Both the position numbers and the translations under genes were made by a program. The notes under the pieces were generated by a model that saw only the letters and a list, made by a program, of their open reading frames with translations, made no database searches and was not told the origin of the DNA. Source: Ectothiorhodospiraceae bacterium 2226 (GTDB taxonomy: Bacteria; Pseudomonadota; Gammaproteobacteria; GCA-013348725). Taken from it: DNA of 64,000 nt. Below, piece after piece: positions 45,051 to 56,128 of the stretch; position 1 is the stretch's first letter, and each line of letters opens with the position of its first letter. The stretch is taken from assembly GCA_013348725.1 (NCBI GenBank), contig CP054689.1, positions 2,786,501-2,850,500 of the forward strand. The letters run 5' to 3'.

Positions 45051-45190
45051 ATACCTCTGGACCTTCGGCGCGCAGAAATGCATAGTTAGGCATAAGAATA
45101 AGGCGCTCGCCTGCCCCCGAGCGTACGTGGATGGGAATTGGGGGCACGAGCACAATGATGTGCATACAGGGACGGGGGGACGGATTTCCT

Positions 45191-46285
45191 ATGGATAACT
45201 CATGGAGCAATATGCGGCGTAGGCCGCAAGAGGATAGGCGCTATACGGACGATGACGAGATCAGCCTCGTCGACCTCTGGCTTGTCCTCGCCCGCCGGAA
45301 GTGGTGGATCATCGGTACCTTTCTCGTCGTCCTCGCCGTGGCGGCGGCGGCTGCCTTCCTTAGCGTCCATCGTTACGAATTCATAACCACCATCGAAATC
45401 GGTACGCGCATCAGCGGTAATCAAGTCAGCCCGATCGAGTCTCCAGAGGCGGTGGTCGCCAAGCTCAACGAAGGCTACATCCCGCCCATCATCGAAGACT
45501 TTGCTGCGAAGACGCCCGATGGTGTGCCCGGCAACGGCGTCCGGGCGCGGGTGCCGCAGGGCAGCAACCTCGTCGTCCTCCAAAGTGAAGGCCCGCAAGA
45601 TCGCCGCGAACTGTTCACCGACATGCACAATCTCGTGGTGCAGCGACTGCAGCAGGATCACAATCGCATGGTCGACGTGATCCGTCAGGGGCAGCAGGTG
45701 CAGCTCGCGGAGGAGATGAGCCGCTTGGCGGAACTGGAGTCCGAAGCGACCGTGATGGAGGGTCGCTTGGAGCGGGTGCAGGAGGCGCGCCGCCTGCTCA
45801 TCGAGGAGATCAAGGTGGTGCGCGCGTTGGTCGAGCGCGCCGAGGGCGAGCGCGAGCGCGCGGTGAGAGAGGCCGGCGAAACCACCGCAGCCATGACCTT
45901 GCTCCTTCTAACCAATGACCTTCACCAGAACCGTGCGCGGCTCACCCAGCTCGAAGAGCGTGCCGCGGTTCAGCTCGTGAACGAGCGGGATCTGTACGCC
46001 AGCGAACTAGGGCGTGTTCGCGGGAGTATCGAGAGTCAGAAGCAACGGATCGAGGGGGTGAAGATTCAGTTGGCGAACATTCAGGAGACGCGGCTGCTTT
46101 CGGGGCCGCGGCAGTCCCTGAATCCCACGGCGCCGAATCGTAAGCTCATGGTTGCGCTGGGCGCCGTGTTGGGATTGGTCGCGGGCGTATTCCTAGCGTT
46201 CTTCGCCGAGCTGGGCGCGAGCGTTCGCGCGCGCCGTGAGGCGGTTGCCGAAGCTGAGAGCGAGCATCCTCGCCAAGCCGCTTAA
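45191..46285 (+). CDS. Wzz-family polysaccharide chain-length regulator, first paralogue
   Basis: A 364-aa inner-membrane polysaccharide co-polymerase. A cytoplasmic lead (DDDEISLVDLWLVLARRKWW) precedes the first membrane helix (about 38-58), a large periplasmic coiled-coil region (about 60-315), and the second helix LMVALGAVLGLVAGVFLAFF preceded by the Pro-rich NPTAPNRK. No Walker motifs are present, so it lacks the BY-kinase of Wzc. The ATG at 45191 is an estimate; ATGs at 45155 and 45131 are in frame. A second copy follows at 46433. They presumably set the length of the polymer made by the wzx/wzy genes downstream. Confidence 0.88.
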   Translation: MDNSWSNMRRRPQEDRRYTDDDEISLVDLWLVLARRKWWIIGTFLVVLAVAAAAAFLSVHRYEFITTIEIGTRISGNQVSPIESPEAVVAKLNEGYIPPIIEDFAAKTPDGVPGNGVRARVPQGSNLVVLQSEGPQDRRELFTDMHNLVVQRLQQDHNRMVDVIRQGQQVQLAEEMSRLAELESEATVMEGRLERVQEARRLLIEEIKVVRALVERAEGERERAVREAGETTAAMTLLLLTNDLHQNRARLTQLEERAAVQLVNERDLYASELGRVRGSIESQKQRIEGVKIQLANIQETRLLSGPRQSLNPTAPNRKLMVALGAVLGLVAGVFLAFFAELGASVRARREAVAEAESEHPRQAA

Positions 46286-46297
46286 GCAGTAAGCCGC

Positions 46298-46327
46298 GCC
46301 CCCTCGAGCTCGGGAGCTCGAGGGGGC
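46298..46327 (+). terminator. Hairpin between the two wzz-like genes
   Basis: A 13-bp perfect stem (GCCCCCTCGAGCT and its complement) with a 4-base loop begins 13 bp after the first wzz stop. It lacks a T tract. It may partly uncouple the two paralogues. Confidence 0.5.
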
Positions 46328-46432
46328 GGCGCATCACAGTCATCTCCGGCCGCCACTGCCGGCCGCGAGTCTCTCATCCCTTTCAATCGCTTAACGCCTG
46401 AAGAGCCTCGTCCTGAGGTTGCGAAGTGTGAT

Positions 46433-47528
46433 ATGGTTCGCATTTTTCGGCGTCAAGCAATGCAAACAACAAGAAGGGGGGACTACCAGGCGTCGGACGA
46501 AATCAGCCTGGTAGATCTGTGGCTACTGCTCAGCCGGCGCGTGTGGTTGATTGTCGGGACGCTTCTGGTCGCTCTGGCGCTGGCCGTGGCCGTTGCGGCA
46601 TTTACGGCGCCCAAGTTCTCCGTGGTCACCACATTGGAGATCGGGACGCGCGTCAGCGGCAACGAGATCGCGCTCATCGAATCGCCCGACGCGGTGGCCG
46701 CCAAACTGAACGAGAACTACATCCCGGCGGCCCTGCATGCCGTCGCCGAAAGGGTGCCGGAGGGCCGCCTCATTCGCCCGCCGCGTGCCCATGTCCCGCC
46801 TCAGAGCGAGCTGGTGGTAATCCAGAGCGCGGCGCCTGCTGCACACGGCCCACTACTGCGAGAGGTGCACGAAGCGGCGCTGGGGCTTCTGCGCCAGGAT
46901 CATGCACGCATCATCGATGTGACGCGACAGGAGCATCAGGCCCGGGAAGCGGAGGAATCCGCCGCGCTCGCCGCCCTGCAGAATGAGGCCCGGAATCTGC
47001 GCGCCCGCGTCGAACGCGCGGAGGAATCCCTGCAGTTGATGGCCGAGGAGATTCGGCGCGTGGGCGCACGGGTGGCTCAGGCCGAAGCCGATCGCGCCGA
47101 AGCGCTGACCGCGGCGGTCGAGGGCGACAATGTGGAGACCACGCTGTTGCTGATGACCAACGATCTGCATCAGCATCGGGCGCGGCTCGCCGAACTCCGT
47201 GAACGTGTGGCGGTCCATCTTCCGAACGAGCGGGACGCGGACGCCGCGGAGCAGCGGCGTGTGGAGGGTGCAATCGCGGTGCAGCGGCTGCGGGTTGAGG
47301 GCGCCCGGCTGGCCCTTGAGAACCTGCGCGAGACCCAAGCGCTCGCCGCGCCGCGCCATTCGCGAGAGGCCGTCTCGCCCAACATCGCGCTGATTCTCAT
47401 TGGGTCTCGTGTTGGGGCTGGTCGGCGGGTTACTCCTCGCGCTTCTCGCCGAGCTGCGCGTCGCCGCCCGGAGTCAGCGCCGATCGGCACTCGCACGGCG
47501 CGAGGACGACGTCCGACAAGCGGCGTGA
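46433..47528 (+). pseudogene. Second Wzz-family paralogue, frameshifted in the C-terminal membrane helix
   Basis: The first 320 or so codons parallel the neighbouring Wzz paralogue: QASDEISLVDLWLLLSRRVW, first helix, TTLEIGTRVSGNEIALIESP, LLLMTNDLHQHRARL, and the Pro-Asn preceding the second helix. Near 47399-47405, after IALILIG, the frame is lost. In the next frame the sequence reads LVLGLVGGLLLALLAELR and then RRSALARREDDVRQAA and a TGA at 47526-47528, exactly the expected ending. Uncorrected, the reading frame instead gives a basic non-membrane tail that runs to 47725, into manC. A single extra G (or a 2-base loss) in ATTGGGTCTCG explains it. It could be a real mutation or a sequencing error. 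Confidence 0.8.
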
Positions 47529-47537
47529 GAACCCCGT

Positions 47538-47595
47538 CACAGGGCAGGGACGCCCTGTGCGCGTCGGCTTTACCTCCCCGATCATGGTCTATATT
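47538..47595 (+). promoter_or_regulatory. Hairpin and probable promoter upstream of manC
   Basis: An 8-bp stem CACAGGGC/GCCCTGTG is followed by a -10-like TATATT at 47590-47595, 51 bp before the manC start. No convincing -35 is seen. It would allow manC-cysC to be transcribed independently of the wzz genes. Confidence 0.4.
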
Positions 47596-47645
47596 TAGCC
47601 CGTGGCTGTGGCCGAACAGGCCATTGCGAGGGAGGGAGCCCAAGC

Positions 47646-49169
47646 ATGACAACAAGGAACGCGCCTATTCAACCCGTGATTCTCTCGGGGGGGGCGGGCA
47701 CGCGGCTGTGGCCGCTGTCCCGTAAGCATTTTCCAAAGCAACTTCTGCCGCTTACCGGCGAACTCACGCTGCTGCAGGAAACCGCGCGGCGGCTGGTCGA
47801 CTTTAGCGGCAGCGCCGTGCGCGAGCCGATCCTCGTTTGCAACGAGGCCCAGCGCTTTATGGTGGCCGAACAACTCAAGCGGGTGGAAGCGCCGAAGGCG
47901 CGCATCCTGCTGGAGCCGGTGGGGCGCAACACGGCGCCGGCCTTGACCTTGGCGGCGCTCGATGCGCGCCAGGTCGCCGACCCGCTGCTGTTGGTGATGC
48001 CGGCCGATCACCTGATTCCCGATCCCCAGGCCTTTCACGCCGCCATCGAGGCGGGGACGGAGCTTGCGCGCGAGGGCAACGTGATTACCTTCGGCGTGGT
48101 GCCGACCACCGCCGAAACCGGTTACGGCTATATCCGGCGCGACGGTACGGGGGAGGGGCCGAGCCGCGCTGCGAAGTTCGTGGAAAAGCCTGATCGTGCC
48201 ACCGCGCAAACCTACGTCGACGACGGCCGCTACGTGTGGAACAGCGGTATCTTCCTGCTGCGCGCCTCGGTCTGGCTGGAGCTGCTAGAGACGCACGCGC
48301 CGGAGATGGCCGCGGCCTGCATGCGCGCCTACGAGGCAGGTGAGAGCGACGAGCCGTTCTACCGCATCTCGCGGGAGGCATTCGCCTCCTGTCCCAGCGA
48401 CTCGATCGACTACGCCGTGATGGAACGCATCGCGGGCGAGGCGGGGCGCTTGTACGTGGTGCCGCTCGCGGCCGGCTGGTCGGACGTCGGCGGCTGGCGC
48501 TCGCTGTGGGAGGTGTTGCCCAAGGATGACGGGGGCAACGTGCGCCGCGGCGACGTGTACACCCACGACGCGCGCAATTCCCTGCTGATGGCCGGCCAGC
48601 GCTGCGTGGCGGCCGTGGGTGTAGACAACCTCATCGTGGTGGAGACGGCCGATGCTGTGCTGGTCGCCCATCGCGACCGCGCCCAGGACGTCAAGCACAT
48701 CGTCGAGCAGATGCGCGAGGACATGCGCGAGGAATGCGAGCAGCATCGGCGGGTTTTCCGCCCCTGGGGCGACTACGAGGGCCTGGACAAGGGCGAACGC
48801 TTCCAGGTGAAGCGCATCGTGGTGAAGCCCGGCGAGGCCCTGTCGCTGCAGATGCACCACCATCGCGCGGAGCACTGGGTGGTGGTGCGGGGCACGGCAA
48901 AGGTCACGCGCGGGGACGAGACCTTCATCATCAGCGAGAACCAATCGACCTATATCCCGCTCGGGGTGAAGCACCGCCTGGAGAACCCCGGCACGATTCC
49001 GCTCGAGATCATCGAGGTGCAGTCGGGCAGCTATCTCGGCGAAGACGACATCGTCCGCTTCGACGACGTCTATGGGCGCGGTGCCGACGCGCCCCCGCCG
49101 AAGCCCGCCGCGCAGCCGTCGGCGGAGCGCCTGGTCGGCGGCGCCTTGTGGGGCGGCGGCCGCAGCTGA
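47646..49169 (+). CDS. manC: Bifunctional mannose-1-phosphate guanylyltransferase / mannose-6-phosphate isomerase
   Basis: Makes GDP-mannose for surface polysaccharide. The 507-aa protein begins with the nucleotidyltransferase motif LSGGAGTRLWPLSRKHFPKQ, with VEKPDRATAQTYV around residue 180 and GWSDVGGW in the middle. The C-terminal third is a cupin phosphomannose isomerase domain (FRPWGDYEGL, then LQMHHHRAEHWVVVRGTAKV, YIPLGVKHRLENPG). Residues after about 480 are Ala/Pro-rich. GAGGGAGGGAG precedes the ATG. The partner phosphomannomutase is at 54770, on the other side of a toxin-antitoxin island. Confidence 0.95.
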   Translation: MTTRNAPIQPVILSGGAGTRLWPLSRKHFPKQLLPLTGELTLLQETARRLVDFSGSAVREPILVCNEAQRFMVAEQLKRVEAPKARILLEPVGRNTAPALTLAALDARQVADPLLLVMPADHLIPDPQAFHAAIEAGTELAREGNVITFGVVPTTAETGYGYIRRDGTGEGPSRAAKFVEKPDRATAQTYVDDGRYVWNSGIFLLRASVWLELLETHAPEMAAACMRAYEAGESDEPFYRISREAFASCPSDSIDYAVMERIAGEAGRLYVVPLAAGWSDVGGWRSLWEVLPKDDGGNVRRGDVYTHDARNSLLMAGQRCVAAVGVDNLIVVETADAVLVAHRDRAQDVKHIVEQMREDMREECEQHRRVFRPWGDYEGLDKGERFQVKRIVVKPGEALSLQMHHHRAEHWVVVRGTAKVTRGDETFIISENQSTYIPLGVKHRLENPGTIPLEIIEVQSGSYLGEDDIVRFDDVYGRGADAPPPKPAAQPSAERLVGGALWGGGRS

Positions 49170-49234: not shown

Positions 49235-49909
49235 ATGCATGAGACGCGCAAGAGCAATAACGTCGTCTGGCAGGACTTGGCCATCGACCGCCGGCAGCGC
49301 AACGAACTGAACGGGCACAAGAGCGCGATTCTTTGGTTCACCGGGCTGTCCGGCTCGGGCAAGTCGACCCTGGCACGCGCCGTCGAGGAGCGCCTGCACG
49401 CCGAAGGCTGCCGCACCTTCGTGCTGGATGGGGACAACGTGCGGCACGGTCTGTGTGGCGACCTCGGCTTCTCGGAGCAGGATCGTGCCGAGAACATCCG
49501 CCGCATCGGCGAGGTGGCCAAGCTGTGCGTGGAGGCCGGCCTCATTACGCTGACGGCGTTCATCTCGCCGTTTCGCGCCGACCGCGACAGGGTACGCAGC
49601 CTGGTCGCGCCGGGGGACTTGCTCGAGGTGTACGTGCAGTGCCCGCTCAGCGTGTGCGAACAGCGCGACGTGAAGGGCCTGTACAAGCGCGCGCGGGCCG
49701 GCGAAATCAAAGACTTTACCGGCATTTCGTCGCCGTACGAGCCACCCGAGAACCCCGATATCGTGGTCGACACCAGCTGCACCAGCATTGACCAGTGCGT
49801 GGATCAGGTGATCGAGGCCCTGGAAGCGCGCGACGTCATCGCGCCGCTGCAGCCGGTGGCCGCGGCGGGCCATGCACGCCGTGTGAATGGACGGGACGCC
49901 CGACTGTAG
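49235..49909 (+). CDS. cysC: Adenylylsulfate (APS) kinase
   Basis: Phosphorylates APS to PAPS. The 224-aa protein has the P-loop [11 protein letters not shown] (35-45), [20 protein letters not shown], the [16 protein letters not shown] segment, [19 protein letters not shown] and [15 protein letters not shown]. It is not accompanied by cysD/cysN here. Placed directly after manC in a polysaccharide locus, it may supply PAPS for sulfation of a glycan, though no sulfotransferase lies in the window. The last 25 residues are not conserved in the family. Confidence 0.93.
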
Positions 49910-49982: not shown

Positions 49983-50231
49983 ATGGATACCACCATCGTG
50001 TCGCTCGCGGAAGCCAAGGCGCGCCTGAGCGAGCTTACCGAGCTCGCCGCGACCGGCGAGACGGTCATCATCACCAAGCGGGGCAAGCCGGTCGGGCGGC
50101 TGTCGCAGGCCGACCGACCCCGGCAACCGGTGGACAAGCATGCGCTGGCGCGCCTTACCGCCTCGATGCCGCCGCAGGAGGAGAGTGCGGAGACGTTCAT
50201 CCGCGCCGTTCGCGATGACGTGCGCTATTGA
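49983..50231 (+). CDS. Phd/YefM-family antitoxin
   Basis: An 82-aa antitoxin with the N-terminal Phd fold: VSLAEAKARLSELTELAATG (about 6-25), then VIITKRGKPVGRLSQ (about 28-42), and a toxin-neutralising C-terminal tail ending FIRAVRDDVRY. The ATG follows a short leader downstream of a palindromic operator. The toxin gene start overlaps its stop (TGATG), a typical toxin-antitoxin arrangement. Confidence 0.93.
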   Translation: MDTTIVSLAEAKARLSELTELAATGETVIITKRGKPVGRLSQADRPRQPVDKHALARLTASMPPQEESAETFIRAVRDDVRY

Positions 50232-50653
50232 TGCTTTACTTGGATACCAGCCTGCTGGTGGCCGCGCTCACCAATGAAGCTCGTACGAGCGATATGCAAA
50301 CCTGGTTGGCCGCGCAGGACCCGGAAGCACTGTTCATCAGCGAATGGGTGATCACGGAGTTCTCGGCGGCCCTCTCGGCGAAGGTGCGCGTCGGCCACAT
50401 CGGCGCCTCGCATCGCGCGGACGCGCTCGCCGTATTCACCGCCTTGACCGAACGTAGCTTCGGCGTGCTCGCCGTGTCGCGTGCCGAGTTCCGTGCCGCG
50501 GCGCGCTTTGCCGATCAGCACGCTATCGGGCTGCGGGCGGGCGACGCCCTCCATCTCGCTGTTGCCGCCAACCACGGCGCGCGGCTGTGCTCGCTCGACC
50601 GAACCCTGGTGAACGCGGGCGATGCGCTCGGCGTCAGCACCGCCTTCCTGTAG
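50231..50653 (+). CDS. PIN-domain ribonuclease toxin (VapC family)
   Basis: A 140-aa PIN-domain toxin. The four acidic residues of the Mg-dependent nuclease are all present: Asp5 in MLYLDTSLLVAAL, Glu43 in SEWVITEFSAAL, Asp105 in LRAGDALHLAVAA and Asp123 in CSLDRTLV. VapC toxins usually cut initiator tRNA or 23S rRNA; the target here is unknown. It is paired with a Phd-type antitoxin, a common hybrid combination. ATG at 50231 is preferred to the adjacent TTG. Confidence 0.93.
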   Translation: MLYLDTSLLVAALTNEARTSDMQTWLAAQDPEALFISEWVITEFSAALSAKVRVGHIGASHRADALAVFTALTERSFGVLAVSRAEFRAAARFADQHAIGLRAGDALHLAVAANHGARLCSLDRTLVNAGDALGVSTAFL

Positions 50654-51154: not shown

Positions 51155-51258
51155 GAGTCGCCGTAGAGGCAAGAAGCCCTTATCTGCTCGCGAAGTGTGA
51201 GCTGCGGATGATTCGATGGTGCGCCTATGCTCCGCGCCCCCCAAACAGCGACGACGTT

Positions 51259-51408
51259 GTAGGGCGCCATAAGCGCAGCGCATCGCGCCATGGGCCTCGC
51301 CGAGGTACACCTCCCCCGACTTTTCGCGCCGCAGCCGGGGATCTGGACCTATAGCGCCCTGGGCACTTCCCGGCGCGATGCGCCGCTGCGCGGCTTATGG
51401 CGCCCTAC
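51259..51408. repeat. Inverted pair of the dispersed repeat flanking an 82-bp centre
   Basis: GTAGGGCGCCATAAGCGCAG and following bases (51259-51289) and the reverse-oriented copy ending GGCTTATGGCGCCCTAC (51372-51408) bracket about 82 bp with no gene. Together they make up most of the 51155-51472 gap. Remaining bases before 51259 and after 51408 contain only the hipB promoter region. Confidence 0.85.
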
Positions 51409-51454
51409 ATTTGCGTGGTCTTAATGCATCATATAAGATTCATAATCTCGTCGG

Positions 51455-51474
51455 ATGAATCGTATATTATTCAT
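51455..51474. promoter_or_regulatory. Palindrome over the hipB start, candidate HipB operator
   Basis: ATGAAT and ATTCAT form perfect half-sites separated by 8 bp, and an AT-rich GATTCATAATC lies just upstream. The N8 spacing is the same as in the E. coli HipB operator (whose half-sites differ). The right half overlaps the likely ATG, so binding could block both transcription and translation. Confidence 0.5.
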
Positions 51475-51787
51475 GTCAAGCTATAGTGCGCCCCCGACCG
51501 TGACCCGTCGTCTGCAACGCCTCGGCAGGCTCATTGCCGCCGCGCGCCGCGCGCGGGGCTTCACGCAGACCCAGCTTGCCGAACGGGCCGGCACCTCGCG
51601 CCCAACCATAAACAGGGTCGAGCAGGGGGCGGGGAATGTCGCCTGGGGCACGGTCATGACCCTCTGCTGGCTGCTCGATTTGCCGAGCGACCCGGATGCG
51701 CTCAGTCCCGACAGGCAGGCGGAACTGGCGGTCGCCGGGCGCGGCCGGCGGGTTCGCCCCCGGGGAGGGCTGAGCGATGACTTCTAA
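51473..51787 (+). CDS. hipB: HipB-type XRE antitoxin
   Basis: A 104-aa antitoxin/repressor with a helix-turn-helix: RRLQRLGRLIAAARRARGFTQ, then TQLAERAGTSRPTINRVEQG (about 13-55). The C-terminal 30 residues (QAELAVAGRGRRVRPRGGLSDDF) match the flexible tail common to HipB proteins. The ATG at 51473 is favoured; one at 51455 lies in a palindromic operator. hipA begins inside its 3' end (ATGACTTCTAA), so the pair is translationally coupled. Confidence 0.9.
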   Translation: MSSYSAPPTVTRRLQRLGRLIAAARRARGFTQTQLAERAGTSRPTINRVEQGAGNVAWGTVMTLCWLLDLPSDPDALSPDRQAELAVAGRGRRVRPRGGLSDDF

Positions 51788-53015
51788 GGTCGGTGCAACG
51801 TCCGCATACGTTTGGTTGTGGCTGCCAGGCGCCGACGAACCGGTGGTTTGCGGGCGCGTGACGGCCGATGGACCGGGTGCAGACGCGGTGCATCGCTTCG
51901 TCTACGGACGCTCCTACCGTGCCCGCGCGCAGGCGATCGCGCTCGCCCCGCACGCGCTCCCGCTGCGCGAAGGTGAGCAGGTCACGCGGCGCGGACTGCC
52001 CGGCGTACTCCGCGACGCTGCCCCCGATGCGTGGGGGCGACGGGTGCTGGCACACCGACTGCGCTACAGCGCAGAGCGTGCCGACACGGACCTCACGGAG
52101 ATCGATTACCTGCTTTTGTGCGGCCAAGCCCCGGGCGCCCTTCATTTCCAGACCACGCCCGAGTCTTATACGGCGCAGGCGGAAGGCGCGGCGAGCCTGG
52201 AACAGCTACAGCAGGCGGTCGCGTCCGTCGAGGGGGGCGAACCTCTGACGCCCGAACTCGAGCTGGCGCTACTGCACGGGACGAGCATCGGCGGAGCGCG
52301 ACCCAAGGCCTTGTTGCGGGCGGGCGACGGCCGCCGCTTGATCGTAAAGTTCAGTTCCTCTGCCGACATCCACCCCGCAGTGCGTCTTGAGGCCCTTGGG
52401 TTGGCGCTGGCACGTGCGGCGGGCATCGAAACGGTGCGCGCCGAGCGGTTACAGATTCTAGGCCGAGACGTCCTCGCGATCGAGCGGTTTGACGTCACCG
52501 ACGATGCACCCCCGCGGCACTTTATTAGTGCCCTGACCGCGCTCGACCTGGATGAGATGGAGGCGCGCTACGCCGGATACCCGGCGTTGGCTGACTTTTT
52601 GCGCCGCTATGCCGAGGACGCACTGGGGGCATGCCGCGAACTGTACCGCCGCCTGTTGTTCAACATCCTGATCGGCAACACCGACGATCACGCGCGAAAC
52701 CATGCGATCTTTTGGGACGGCCGGTTTGCCTCGCTCACGCCGGCCTACGACATCTGCATCATCCCGAGGCTGGGCTTGGAGGCGAGCCAGGCGATGGAGG
52801 TCGGGGGCGAGGGAAAGCGCGCGACGCTGAAGAACGCGTACTCCGAATCGGGGCGGTTCGGGATCGACGCCGTCACCGCCCGCGCGATGGCGCGGGAGAT
52901 CGAGGACGCGATTCGCGCACACTGGGCTGCGCAGTGCGATCAGGCGTCCGTCCCCGAGGCGCTAGCCCGGCAACTTTTTGAGCGCACCGTACTTTCCCCG
53001 GCCGTGCACTATTGA
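51777..53015 (+). CDS. hipA: HipA-family serine/threonine kinase toxin
   Basis: HipA toxins phosphorylate glutamyl-tRNA synthetase (E. coli HipA) or other aminoacyl-tRNA synthetases and induce dormancy. The 412-aa protein has the HipA N-terminal domain (RFVYGRSYRARAQAIALAPH), the phosphate-loop GTSIGGARPKALL (about 163-175), LIVKFSSSADIHPAVRLEA, and the catalytic segment LFNILIGNTDDHARNHA followed by LTPAYDICI. All key catalytic residues are present. The C terminus is LFERTVLSPAVHY; a diverged version of this tail occurs alone at 54578-54622. Confidence 0.93.
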   Translation: MTSKVGATSAYVWLWLPGADEPVVCGRVTADGPGADAVHRFVYGRSYRARAQAIALAPHALPLREGEQVTRRGLPGVLRDAAPDAWGRRVLAHRLRYSAERADTDLTEIDYLLLCGQAPGALHFQTTPESYTAQAEGAASLEQLQQAVASVEGGEPLTPELELALLHGTSIGGARPKALLRAGDGRRLIVKFSSSADIHPAVRLEALGLALARAAGIETVRAERLQILGRDVLAIERFDVTDDAPPRHFISALTALDLDEMEARYAGYPALADFLRRYAEDALGACRELYRRLLFNILIGNTDDHARNHAIFWDGRFASLTPAYDICIIPRLGLEASQAMEVGGEGKRATLKNAYSESGRFGIDAVTARAMAREIEDAIRAHWAAQCDQASVPEALARQLFERTVLSPAVHY

Positions 53016-53020
53016 CCGTA

Positions 53021-53320
53021 CAGCGCCTGTTCCTTGCCCGGCGCCCTCCGGCGCGATGCGCCGCTAACGCGGCTTATGGCGCCCTACGGTTGGGTTGTAG
53101 GGCGCCATAAGCGCAGCGCATCGCGCCATTGGCGCTGGACGCGCCCACTGCCCCGTCCGTTTCGCGCTGCCTTGCAACTTCAGCGCCTGTTCCTTGCCCG
53201 GCGCTCTCCGGCGCGATGCGCCGCTAACGCGGCTTATGGCGCCCTACGGTTGGGGTTGTAGGGCGCCATAAGCGCAGCGCATCGCGCCATGGGCGCTCGT
53301 TCCGGCCACCGCGCCCCCGG
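53021..53320. repeat. 160-bp tandem repeat carrying inverted dispersed elements, first block
   Basis: Two copies of a 160-bp unit begin CAGCGCCTGTTCCTTGCCCG at 53021 and 53181. Each contains a reverse copy of the dispersed element (53050-53087; 53210-53247), a 9-10 bp centre, and a forward copy (53097-53129; 53258-53289), so each unit can fold into a long hairpin. The second unit diverges after about 53300. The block starts 5 bp after the hipA stop. Bases 53321-53389 show nothing recognisable. Confidence 0.85.
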
Positions 53321-53389
53321 CGTTCTCCGGCAAGAAGAGTACCCCCGGAGCTGAGCGCGGATATCGGTACGATCCGGCCGCGCTAAGGA

Positions 53390-53537
53390 AGGTCTGAACA
53401 ACGCCATCCTGGCGTTGCCAGACCGCGCAAAGCGAAAAGCGTGATTTTCACTTTGCTTCGTGATCAACGGCTTCCAGCCGCCGATCACGGCGGCACCTCC
53501 CTGTGCCGAGGGAAGCTCTGATGAATCAGAGCTTCCC
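53390..53537 (-). repeat. Structured multi-hairpin element sharing a core with the 12.9-kb array
   Basis: On the minus strand: a perfect 12-bp stem with 4-base loop (53510-53537) that begins at the hicB stop codon, then a 21-bp core (53488-53508) identical in reverse to one in the array at 13000-13020. A GTGATC/GATCAC bracket, an AAAGYGAAAA-type stem with one mismatch, and a GGTCTG...CAACGCC/GGCGTTG...CAGACC stem (53391-53424) follow. It may act as 3' end for hicB mRNA or be a mobile/selfish repeat of the same family. Confidence 0.8.
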
Positions 53538-53947
53538 TAACGCGGCCGCTTGGCGATCTGCTCGCGCGCCAAGGCGAGTCCGGCGCGCGTCAGAAAGGCT
53601 GAGCGGCTCTCGTTGCTGGCTTTGGCGGCCTGGTCGATCGCGCGCAGGGCGCCAGCCGGTACCGTGAGGTTGATGCGTTGCGCGGGGCCCTGCAGGCGCG
53701 CGACATCGATGTCGAACAGCATCCACACGCCGCCTTCGAACCGGGGATCCTCGGCCAGGCGTTCCAAGGGCGTCGGTTCCGGCACGGGGGCGTCTTCCCC
53801 TTCGCAGTAGACCTCGACGGCTTCCTGAATGGCCGCGGGCAGATCCTCCCAGCTGTCGGCCGCGGAGTAGCAGCCGGGGAAGTCGGGAACGATCGCGCCG
53901 TGGGCGTGGGTCTCATCGCCCGGGTGCACGTATACGGGATAGAGCAT
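53537..53947 (-). CDS. hicB: HicB-family antitoxin with ribbon-helix-helix tail
   Basis: A 136-aa antitoxin. The N-terminal half is the partial-RNase-H-like HicB fold (MLYPVYVHPGDETHAHGAIV, PDFPGCYSAADSWEDLPAAI, then EAVEVYCEGEDAPVPEPTPL). The C-terminal half (about 88-135) is an arc-type ribbon-helix-helix, RINLTVPAGALRAIDQAA, then SRSAFLTRAGLALA, which binds the operator. It follows hicA by 3 bp on the minus strand. Its stop lies at the edge of the hairpin element. Confidence 0.93.
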   Translation of the reverse strand: MLYPVYVHPGDETHAHGAIVPDFPGCYSAADSWEDLPAAIQEAVEVYCEGEDAPVPEPTPLERLAEDPRFEGGVWMLFDIDVARLQGPAQRINLTVPAGALRAIDQAAKASNESRSAFLTRAGLALAREQIAKRPR

Positions 53948-53950
53948 GGC

Positions 53951-54139
53951 TTACCTCCAGTCCCACCCGGCTTGCCGGAAGATGCTGCGCAGCGTGCCGG
54001 TGGGGATGTCCTTGCGCGGGTGCGGCACCACCACGTGGCCGGGGCGCTCGGGGTGCTTGTACTTCGCGTGGTCGCCTTTGCCGCCGACCCGCTTCCACCC
54101 CTCGCGCTCGAGCCGTCTGATGATATCCGGGCTCTTCAT
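53951..54139 (-). CDS. hicA: HicA-family mRNA interferase toxin
   Basis: A 62-aa toxin with the dsRBD-like fold: MKSPDIIRRLEREGWKRVGG, KGDHAKYKHPERPG and VVVPHPRKDIPTGTLRSIFR (in segments). The catalytic His is His24 (DHAKYKHP). The canonical GSHH/GSHR is here GDHA. HicA toxins cleave mRNA independently of ribosomes. The gene sits first in the operon, before hicB, as is usual. Confidence 0.93.
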   Translation of the reverse strand: MKSPDIIRRLEREGWKRVGGKGDHAKYKHPERPGHVVVPHPRKDIPTGTLRSIFRQAGWDWR

Positions 54140-54140
54140 G

Positions 54141-54157
54141 GTGTGTATTATACATAC
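54141..54157 (-). promoter_or_regulatory. hicAB promoter with inverted-repeat operator
   Basis: On the minus strand TATAAT lies 7-12 bases before the hicA ATG, inside the near-palindrome GTATGTATAATACACAC. Overlap of a -10 element and a short inverted repeat fits repression by the HicB ribbon-helix-helix domain. The transcript would be almost leaderless. Confidence 0.55.
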
Positions 54158-54196
54158 TCAGAGCCCACGCAACGGGGGGGGGCGGCCGATCCGGCG

Positions 54197-54577
54197 CGCC
54201 CGCCGACTCCTTCCGTTTCGCACTGGCTTGCACTTCAGCGCCGGGTTCCTTGCCCGGCGCCCTCCGGCGCGATGCGCCGCTAACGTGGCTTATGGCGCCC
54301 TACGGATGGGGTTGTAGGGCGCCATAAGCGCAGCGCATCGCGCCATCGGCGCTGGTCGTGCCCACTGTCTCGTCCGTGTCGCGCTGCCTTTCACTTCAGC
54401 GCCCATTCCTTGTCCGGCGCTCTCAGGCGCGATGCGCCGCTAACGCGGCTTATGGCGCCCTACGGTTTGGGTTGTAGGGCGCCATAGCGCAGCGCATCGC
54501 GCCATGGGCGCTGGTCGCGCCCACCGTCCCGTCCGTTTCGCGCTGCCTTGCACTTCAGCGCCCGTTCCTTGCCCGAC
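54197..54577. repeat. 160-bp tandem repeat, second block in the same orientation
   Basis: Two full units and a partial one of the same 160-bp repeat (start markers CAGCG at 54236, 54397, 54556). Reverse/forward element pairs lie at 54267-54303 / 54314-54345 and 54427-54463 / 54474-54505. It is a direct repeat of the block at 53021-53320, so hicAB sits between two homologous blocks. The last partial unit runs straight into the hipA remnant. The rest of this 630-bp gene-poor gap (54140-54196, 54623-54769) shows nothing except the hicA promoter and the manB leader. Confidence 0.85.
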
Positions 54578-54622
54578 GCCCTGCTGGAGCGAACGGTGCT
54601 GTCTCCCGCCGCCTACTACTGA
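54578..54622 (+). pseudogene. C-terminal remnant of a second, diverged hipA
   Basis: Fourteen codons plus stop read ALLERTVLSPAAYY. The intact HipA at 51777-53015 ends LFERTVLSPAVHY; 10 of the last 13 residues are identical, but most codons differ at the third base. That pattern fits a separately evolving, formerly functional hipA, of which only the 3' end survives, rather than a recent copy of the neighbour. There is no upstream HipA sequence; the 160-bp repeat abuts it. Confidence 0.65.
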
Positions 54623-54769: not shown

Positions 54770-56128
54770 ATGAGCGGGGAATCCTGCTTCAAAGCCTATG
54801 ATATCCGCGGCAAAGTGCCGGATCAGCTGGATGAGACCCTGGCCTACCACATCGGCCACGCCTACGCGGAGGTGGTGCGCCCCGAGGGGCCCGTGGCCAT
54901 CGGTATCGACGTGCGGCAAACCAGCCCCCAGCTCGCCGCCGCCCTCACCCGCGGGCTCAACGACGCCGGTGTGGACACCCGCCAGCTCGGCCTGTGCGGG
55001 ACCGAGACTGTCTACTTCGCCGCCAGCCGCCCCGGCATGGGTGGCGGCATCATGGTCACCGCCAGTCATAACCCCATCGAATACAACGGCATGAAGTTGG
55101 TGCGCGAGGACGCGCGCCCCATCAGCGGCGACAGCGGCCTGCGCGACATCGAGAAGCTCGCCCTGGCGGGCCACCGCCACGCCGCCGAGCGGGTAGGGCA
55201 GGACGAAGCCCTCGACGTGATGGACGATTACGTCCAGAAGGTGCTTTCCTTCGTCGACGTCGAGCGCCTCAAGCCCCTGCACCTGGTGGTGAACGCCGGC
55301 AACGGCTGCGCCGGCCCGACCTTCGATGCGATCGCCAAGCACCTGCCGTTCAAGGTCACCCGCATCCACCACGAGCCCGACGGCACCTTCCCCAACGGCA
55401 TTCCCAACCCGCTGCTGCCCGAGAACCGCGAAGTCACGGCACAGGCCGTGCGCGAGGCCGGCGCCGATATGGGCATCGCCTGGGACGGCGACTTCGACCG
55501 CTGCTTCTTCTTCGACGAACGCGGCGAGTTCATCGAGGGCTACTACCTCGTCGGCCTGCTCGCTGTGCAGATGCTCAAGAAGCACCCCGGCAGCAAGATC
55601 ATCCACGACCCGCGCCTCACCTGGAACACCATCGACATGGTGACCGAAGCGGGCGGCATCCCCGTGCAGAGCAAGACGGGCCACGCCTTCATCAAAGAGC
55701 GCATGCGCGAGGAAGACGCCGTATACGGCGGGGAAATGTCCGCGCATCATTACTTCCGCGACTTCGCTTATTGCGATAGTGGAATGATTCCGTGGTTGTT
55801 GGTGGCTGAGCAGGTAAGTGAGAAGGGCAGGGGACTCTCCCGCTTGGTTGAGGAGCGCGTGCGCGCGTATCCATGTAGCGGAGAGATCAACTACCGGGTG
55901 GCAGATGTTGGCGCCACCGTCGAGCGTGTGCTGGAAAGCTATGTGGCGTCGGACCTTGCGACAGACCGCACGGATGGGGTCAGTGCGGAATTCCCCAACT
56001 GGCGCTTTAACATTCGCGGCTCGAACACCGAACCGATGTTGAGGTTGAATGTAGAGACGCGGGGGGCTAGCCAGCTGGTGAGCGAGCGCGTTCAAGAACT
56101 GAGCAAGCTAATTGGCGGAGCGGCATAG
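54770..56128 (+). CDS. manB: Phosphomannomutase (ManB/CpsG type)
   Basis: Converts mannose-6-phosphate to mannose-1-phosphate for ManC. The 452-aa protein starts ESCFKAYDIRGKVPDQL, has the phosphoserine loop MVTASHNPIEYNGMK (Ser99), the Mg site WDGDFDRCFFFD (about 242-253), the sugar-binding GGEMSAHHYFRDF and the phosphate-binding RGSNTEPMLRLN. From about 55740 (codon 324) G+C content falls and codon choice becomes less biased, though the reading frame and motifs continue. This suggests a recombination join inside the gene. AlgC-like PMM/PGM activity on glucose is also possible. Confidence 0.93.
   Translation: MSGESCFKAYDIRGKVPDQLDETLAYHIGHAYAEVVRPEGPVAIGIDVRQTSPQLAAALTRGLNDAGVDTRQLGLCGTETVYFAASRPGMGGGIMVTASHNPIEYNGMKLVREDARPISGDSGLRDIEKLALAGHRHAAERVGQDEALDVMDDYVQKVLSFVDVERLKPLHLVVNAGNGCAGPTFDAIAKHLPFKVTRIHHEPDGTFPNGIPNPLLPENREVTAQAVREAGADMGIAWDGDFDRCFFFDERGEFIEGYYLVGLLAVQMLKKHPGSKIIHDPRLTWNTIDMVTEAGGIPVQSKTGHAFIKERMREEDAVYGGEMSAHHYFRDFAYCDSGMIPWLLVAEQVSEKGRGLSRLVEERVRAYPCSGEINYRVADVGATVERVLESYVASDLATDRTDGVSAEFPNWRFNIRGSNTEPMLRLNVETRGASQLVSERVQELSKLIGGAA

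Follow-up and report, generated by a model that had tools for sequence, protein, structure and literature searches.

In the window, i.e. the whole 64-kb stretch of DNA that was analysed, a polysaccharide gene region hosts three toxin-antitoxin modules within about 4 kb. One of them, at 49983-50653, pairs a Phd/YefM-type antitoxin with a PIN-domain toxin (Pfam); it follows an adenylylsulfate-kinase-like gene (49235-49909) and is located upstream of the features listed below, while a phosphomannomutase-like gene, here called manB, starts at 54770, after the short hipA relic that is the subject of this analysis.

51455-51787, plus strand: hipB antitoxin gene (110 aa, helix-turn-helix), with an 11-base overlap with hipA
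51777-53015, plus strand: intact hipA toxin gene (412 aa; Pfam HipA_C and Couple_hipA), the sole HipA found in the genome
53022-53299, plus strand: repeat array, left part, with units 1 and 2 (each about 160 bp), beginning 6 bases past the hipA stop
53300-54208, no strand assigned: hicBA-bearing segment in spacer 2 of the array, which is interrupted here and then resumes
53380-53545, no strand assigned: one copy of an intergenic repeat (about 150 bp) that is dispersed in the genome; nearly all of the 67 own-genome matches of the hicBA segment fall here
53537-53947, minus strand: hicB antitoxin gene (136 aa, PF15919)
53951-54139, minus strand: hicA toxin gene (62 aa, PF07927)
54209-54582, plus strand: repeat array, right part: spacer 2 ends here, followed by units 3 and 4 and by the first 26 bases of unit 5, which is truncated at the relic
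54570-54582, plus strand: junction of 13 bases, repeat-like and one base off the repeat unit, readable in the hipA frame too
54581-54622, plus strand: hipA relic, the last 13 codons of a second hipA, LLERTVLSPAAYY, and its stop codon; 54583-54622 lies outside the repeat

The intact gene is a predicted HipA toxin by its domain content, scoring 148.8 bits for HipA_C and 32.0 bits for Couple_hipA, the HipA N-terminal domain (cut-offs 30.5 and 22.5, respectively). The array takes up the whole interval from one hipA end to the other and encloses hicBA and the dispersed repeat. Its four repeat cores share pairwise identities of 90-94%, and the long 160-bp units are found in the genome only here, with pieces of about 30-90 bases scattered elsewhere (23 matches in all). 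In places the dispersed repeat recurs in tandem every 124 bases or so, e.g. near contig positions 14 kb and 2,569 kb. Just upstream of hipB, positions 51256-51419 contain a single inverted pair of a short palindromic repeat, the two halves of which are in reverse order relative to the 160-bp units. Rfam, at E values up to 1, gave five weak matches (E 0.32-0.96), none at the gathering score; these include the naRNA4 family on two repeat units (53000-53083, E 0.32, and 54239-54299, E 0.55; below the curated score) and glutamine-II over the junction, and all five matches were set aside as chance or repeat palindromes.

The hipA relic and its missing body

Positions 54578-54622 translate into ALLERTVLSPAAYY followed by a stop codon, and the intact HipA ends in QLFERTVLSPAVHY followed by its stop. 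In the 13 codons that precede the stop, the two sequences agree in 10 residues but in only two codons, and the differences fall on 10 of the 13 third positions vs. 3 of the 26 first and second positions (Fisher one-sided p = 9.5e-5). This bias indicates that both sequences diverged while they were translated and selected; the relic at 54581-54622 was thus formerly under selection as a coding sequence. No activity is expected of the tail itself. When the whole window was scanned in six frames (ungapped, BLOSUM62) with the last 13 residues of HipA plus the stop as the query, the tail scored 52 against 20 at the next unrelated place, while the best scores across 12 first-order Markov random sequences of 64 kb were 19-25. 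The stop codons of the two sequences are aligned in this ungapped match, and the homology of the relic to the HipA C terminus exceeds chance. A preliminary description of this DNA had reported that 14 codons and a stop match the end of the intact HipA, with differences mostly at third codon positions; both observations are borne out, except that the secure part of the match is 54583-54622, as the first codon (Ala, 54578-54580) lies inside a stretch that also matches the repeat.

The rest of the second hipA is absent from the genome. A protein search with E values up to 10 found one HipA only, and no clear match to further hipA or hipB remains was found near the tail. The spacer just upstream of the tail was considered as older hipA code and rejected, its best frame (28) being different from the frame of the tail (20). 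The best protein score of this spacer was reached by 9 of 300 shuffles against the own HipA, which is not nothing, and by 67 of 300 against the HipA of Methylohalomonas lacus, and its DNA score was equalled in 43 of 300. The single HipA in the genome, the third-position bias, and the motif counts and silent divergence given below give good support to the earlier proposal that a second, diverged and once selected hipA was lost except for its tail.

Subfamily and divergence of the lost gene

For the C-terminal motif ERTV[L/F]xPA, a degenerate 23-base DNA pattern was searched in 369 genomes and identified at 16 places in 15 of them; a backwards control pattern gave one match in the same set. The own genome (2.96 Mb) has two of these places, one at each hipA end, separated by 1.6 kb. 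The remaining 14 places, in 14 other genomes, comprise one HipA end (genome G139), one unrelated place and 12 places antisense to an apparent conserved gene, their shared sequence looking like the antisense of one such gene.

The HipA of M. lacus (locus L037) is 60% identical to the intact HipA and ends in LWERTVLSPALHQD, so that a HipA lineage with such a tail does exist outside the window. The G139 place (locus L032), with the same end and the same 60% identity, is taken to be the same organism. Among the C termini at 27 HipA loci (own included), ERTVLSPA followed by a few residues is confined to the own gene and L037, and most of the others have forms like RQFLNPFAFE; a sample of 299 genomes from the phylum added one further HipA at E <= 1e-100, with a C terminus of the RQFLNPFALE form. 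On the basis of this distribution, the tail derives from the narrow subfamily of the intact gene. The class and phylum genome sets are samples of the known genomes, in which the own order and that of G139 are each represented by one genome. In plasmids, 570 records with a HipA match were found, all below 60% identity.

Base agreement in the first ten aligned codons is 21 of 30 between the tail and the intact gene, 21 of 30 between the tail and the M. lacus HipA, and 22 of 30 between the intact gene and the M. lacus HipA. Among nine shared residues, identical codons number two (intact gene and tail), three (intact gene and M. lacus) and two (tail and M. lacus). The distance between the tail and the intact gene at silent sites is thus like that between the intact gene and the M. 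lacus HipA, which argues that the tail comes from a separate HipA lineage and is no recent copy. Judged from these few codons, the lost gene was about as remote from the intact hipA as the HipA of another order; 14 codons are too few to place the parent of the tail inside the subfamily.

The junction and the loss of the second hipA

At the junction, 26 bases of repeat unit 5 run directly into the tail. The last 13 repeat-like bases, TGCCCGACGCCCT, differ by one base from units 1 and 3 and make sense in the hipA frame too; as they are readable both as repeat and as hipA, the break probably lies within or adjoining them. The suggestion of turnover by recombination at the repeats holds only in part: the junction does coincide with a repeat unit's edge, yet what it joins is a repeat to a gene and not a repeat to a repeat.

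An older or tandem hipA was most likely lost by an illegitimate event at the edge of the array, and how and when this occurred can be proposed as follows. The site directly upstream of manB would have been occupied by a second hipA, from the narrow subfamily to which the intact one belongs. It is most likely that this gene was the older resident and that it was replaced from the left by a segment carrying the present hipBA with the repeats behind it. The right-hand joint would have been illegitimate, formed at a short match (about TTGCCCGRCGCCCT) between the repeat and the hipA end, so that the last 13-14 codons alone survived. The repeat units would have multiplied, and hicBA and the dispersed repeat may have entered one spacer before or after the joint event. 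We give this reading of the relic, as a dead gene fragment left by replacement from the left with an illegitimate right-hand joint, a probability of roughly 0.55. The sequence itself shows the homology, the coding-type divergence, the loss of the body and where the joint lies; that replacement took place instead of tandem loss, that the short match had a role, and in which order things happened is inferred.

A plausible but weaker candidate is the loss of one of two tandem modules, which is close to the version in the preliminary description. Under this scenario an arrangement of hipBA, array and hipBA would have lost its second module to a deletion spanning from repeat unit 5 to the last part of the second hipA. 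It predicts the same present anatomy as replacement, and the tail indeed has the orientation of the intact module, is located downstream of it and is fused to a truncated repeat unit. Nor does composition help to choose between the two scenarios: GC3 is 0.79 in the tail and 0.78 in the intact hipA, compared with 0.82-0.87 in five upstream neighbour genes and 0.84 in manB, and marks neither hipA clearly as a newcomer. However, neither a second hipB nor a hipA body has left a clear trace, and tandem pairs are not usual, as no second copy of the gene's C terminus was found in the flanks of the 27 HipA loci read (up to 5 kb, much less at some), the best second score being 30, at L045, vs. 89 for the own tail of that gene. 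Replacement is favoured because clear traces of a second hipB or hipA body are lacking and because the other HipA loci read have no second tails, and the weight given to it over tandem loss is a judgement.

It is unlikely that the array and hicBA together form an element directed at the hipA end that supplies a new tail and leaves the displaced original one on its far side, in the manner of integrative elements that insert at gene ends. The block from 53022 to 54582 does have hipA ends on both sides, but its named genes are hicA and hicB, and no integrase was found among the listed frames of at least 60 aa (Pfam covered the two hic proteins). In addition, a displaced tail is absent at the other HipA loci read, and the two tails differ at most silent sites. 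Still more doubtful is the broader notion that the block of repeats and hicBA would be a mobile cassette for the capture or exchange of toxin-antitoxin modules, one that breaks into the hipA end and leaves the displaced tail as its scar. Finally, chance resemblance or an origin of the stretch from repeat sequence, for which the shortness of the match and a gapped tblastn alignment running into the repeat (54464-54619, only E = 0.10) might speak, is refuted by the scan scores (52 vs. at most 25 in random sequence) and the aligned stop codon, and the repeat ends at the left edge of the tail, with an upstream spacer that is not clearly hipA-like.

Comparison with known systems

The relic is of a known kind and in itself represents ordinary genome decay. 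Like the gene relics (truncated pseudogenes) described for type II toxin-antitoxin modules, it is a short in-frame toxin end beside an intact homologue in a toxin-antitoxin cluster; unlike them, only 14 codons are left and the joint falls where a tandem repeat array has its edge. A literature search returned no title or opening part of an abstract on a hipA tail at a repeat edge. The HipBA of M. lacus (L037; L032) resembles the present module in its 60% identical HipA, its ERTVLSPA end and a hipB-like frame upstream, but there the module is complete and single, other coding sequence comes after it, and the flank examined has no second tail. Homology-facilitated illegitimate recombination would likewise leave a homologous joint on one side and a short-match joint on the other; here there is no donor or unrearranged recipient sequence for comparison.

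The locus offers a clear fossil of toxin-antitoxin module turnover; its breakpoint can be read to within about 13 bases beside a tandem repeat array. Given sister strains, this breakpoint could decide directly between replacement and the loss of a tandem copy, and the short match at the joint would gain support from a relative in which the gene ends with TTGCCCGACGCCCTGCTGGAG or a close variant. Elsewhere in the window, two adjacent chain-length-determinant-like genes (45131-47725) resemble diverged duplicates; their direct repeats are spaced by 1,242 bases and then by 1,243 near the end, and the second gene may be frameshifted near its end.
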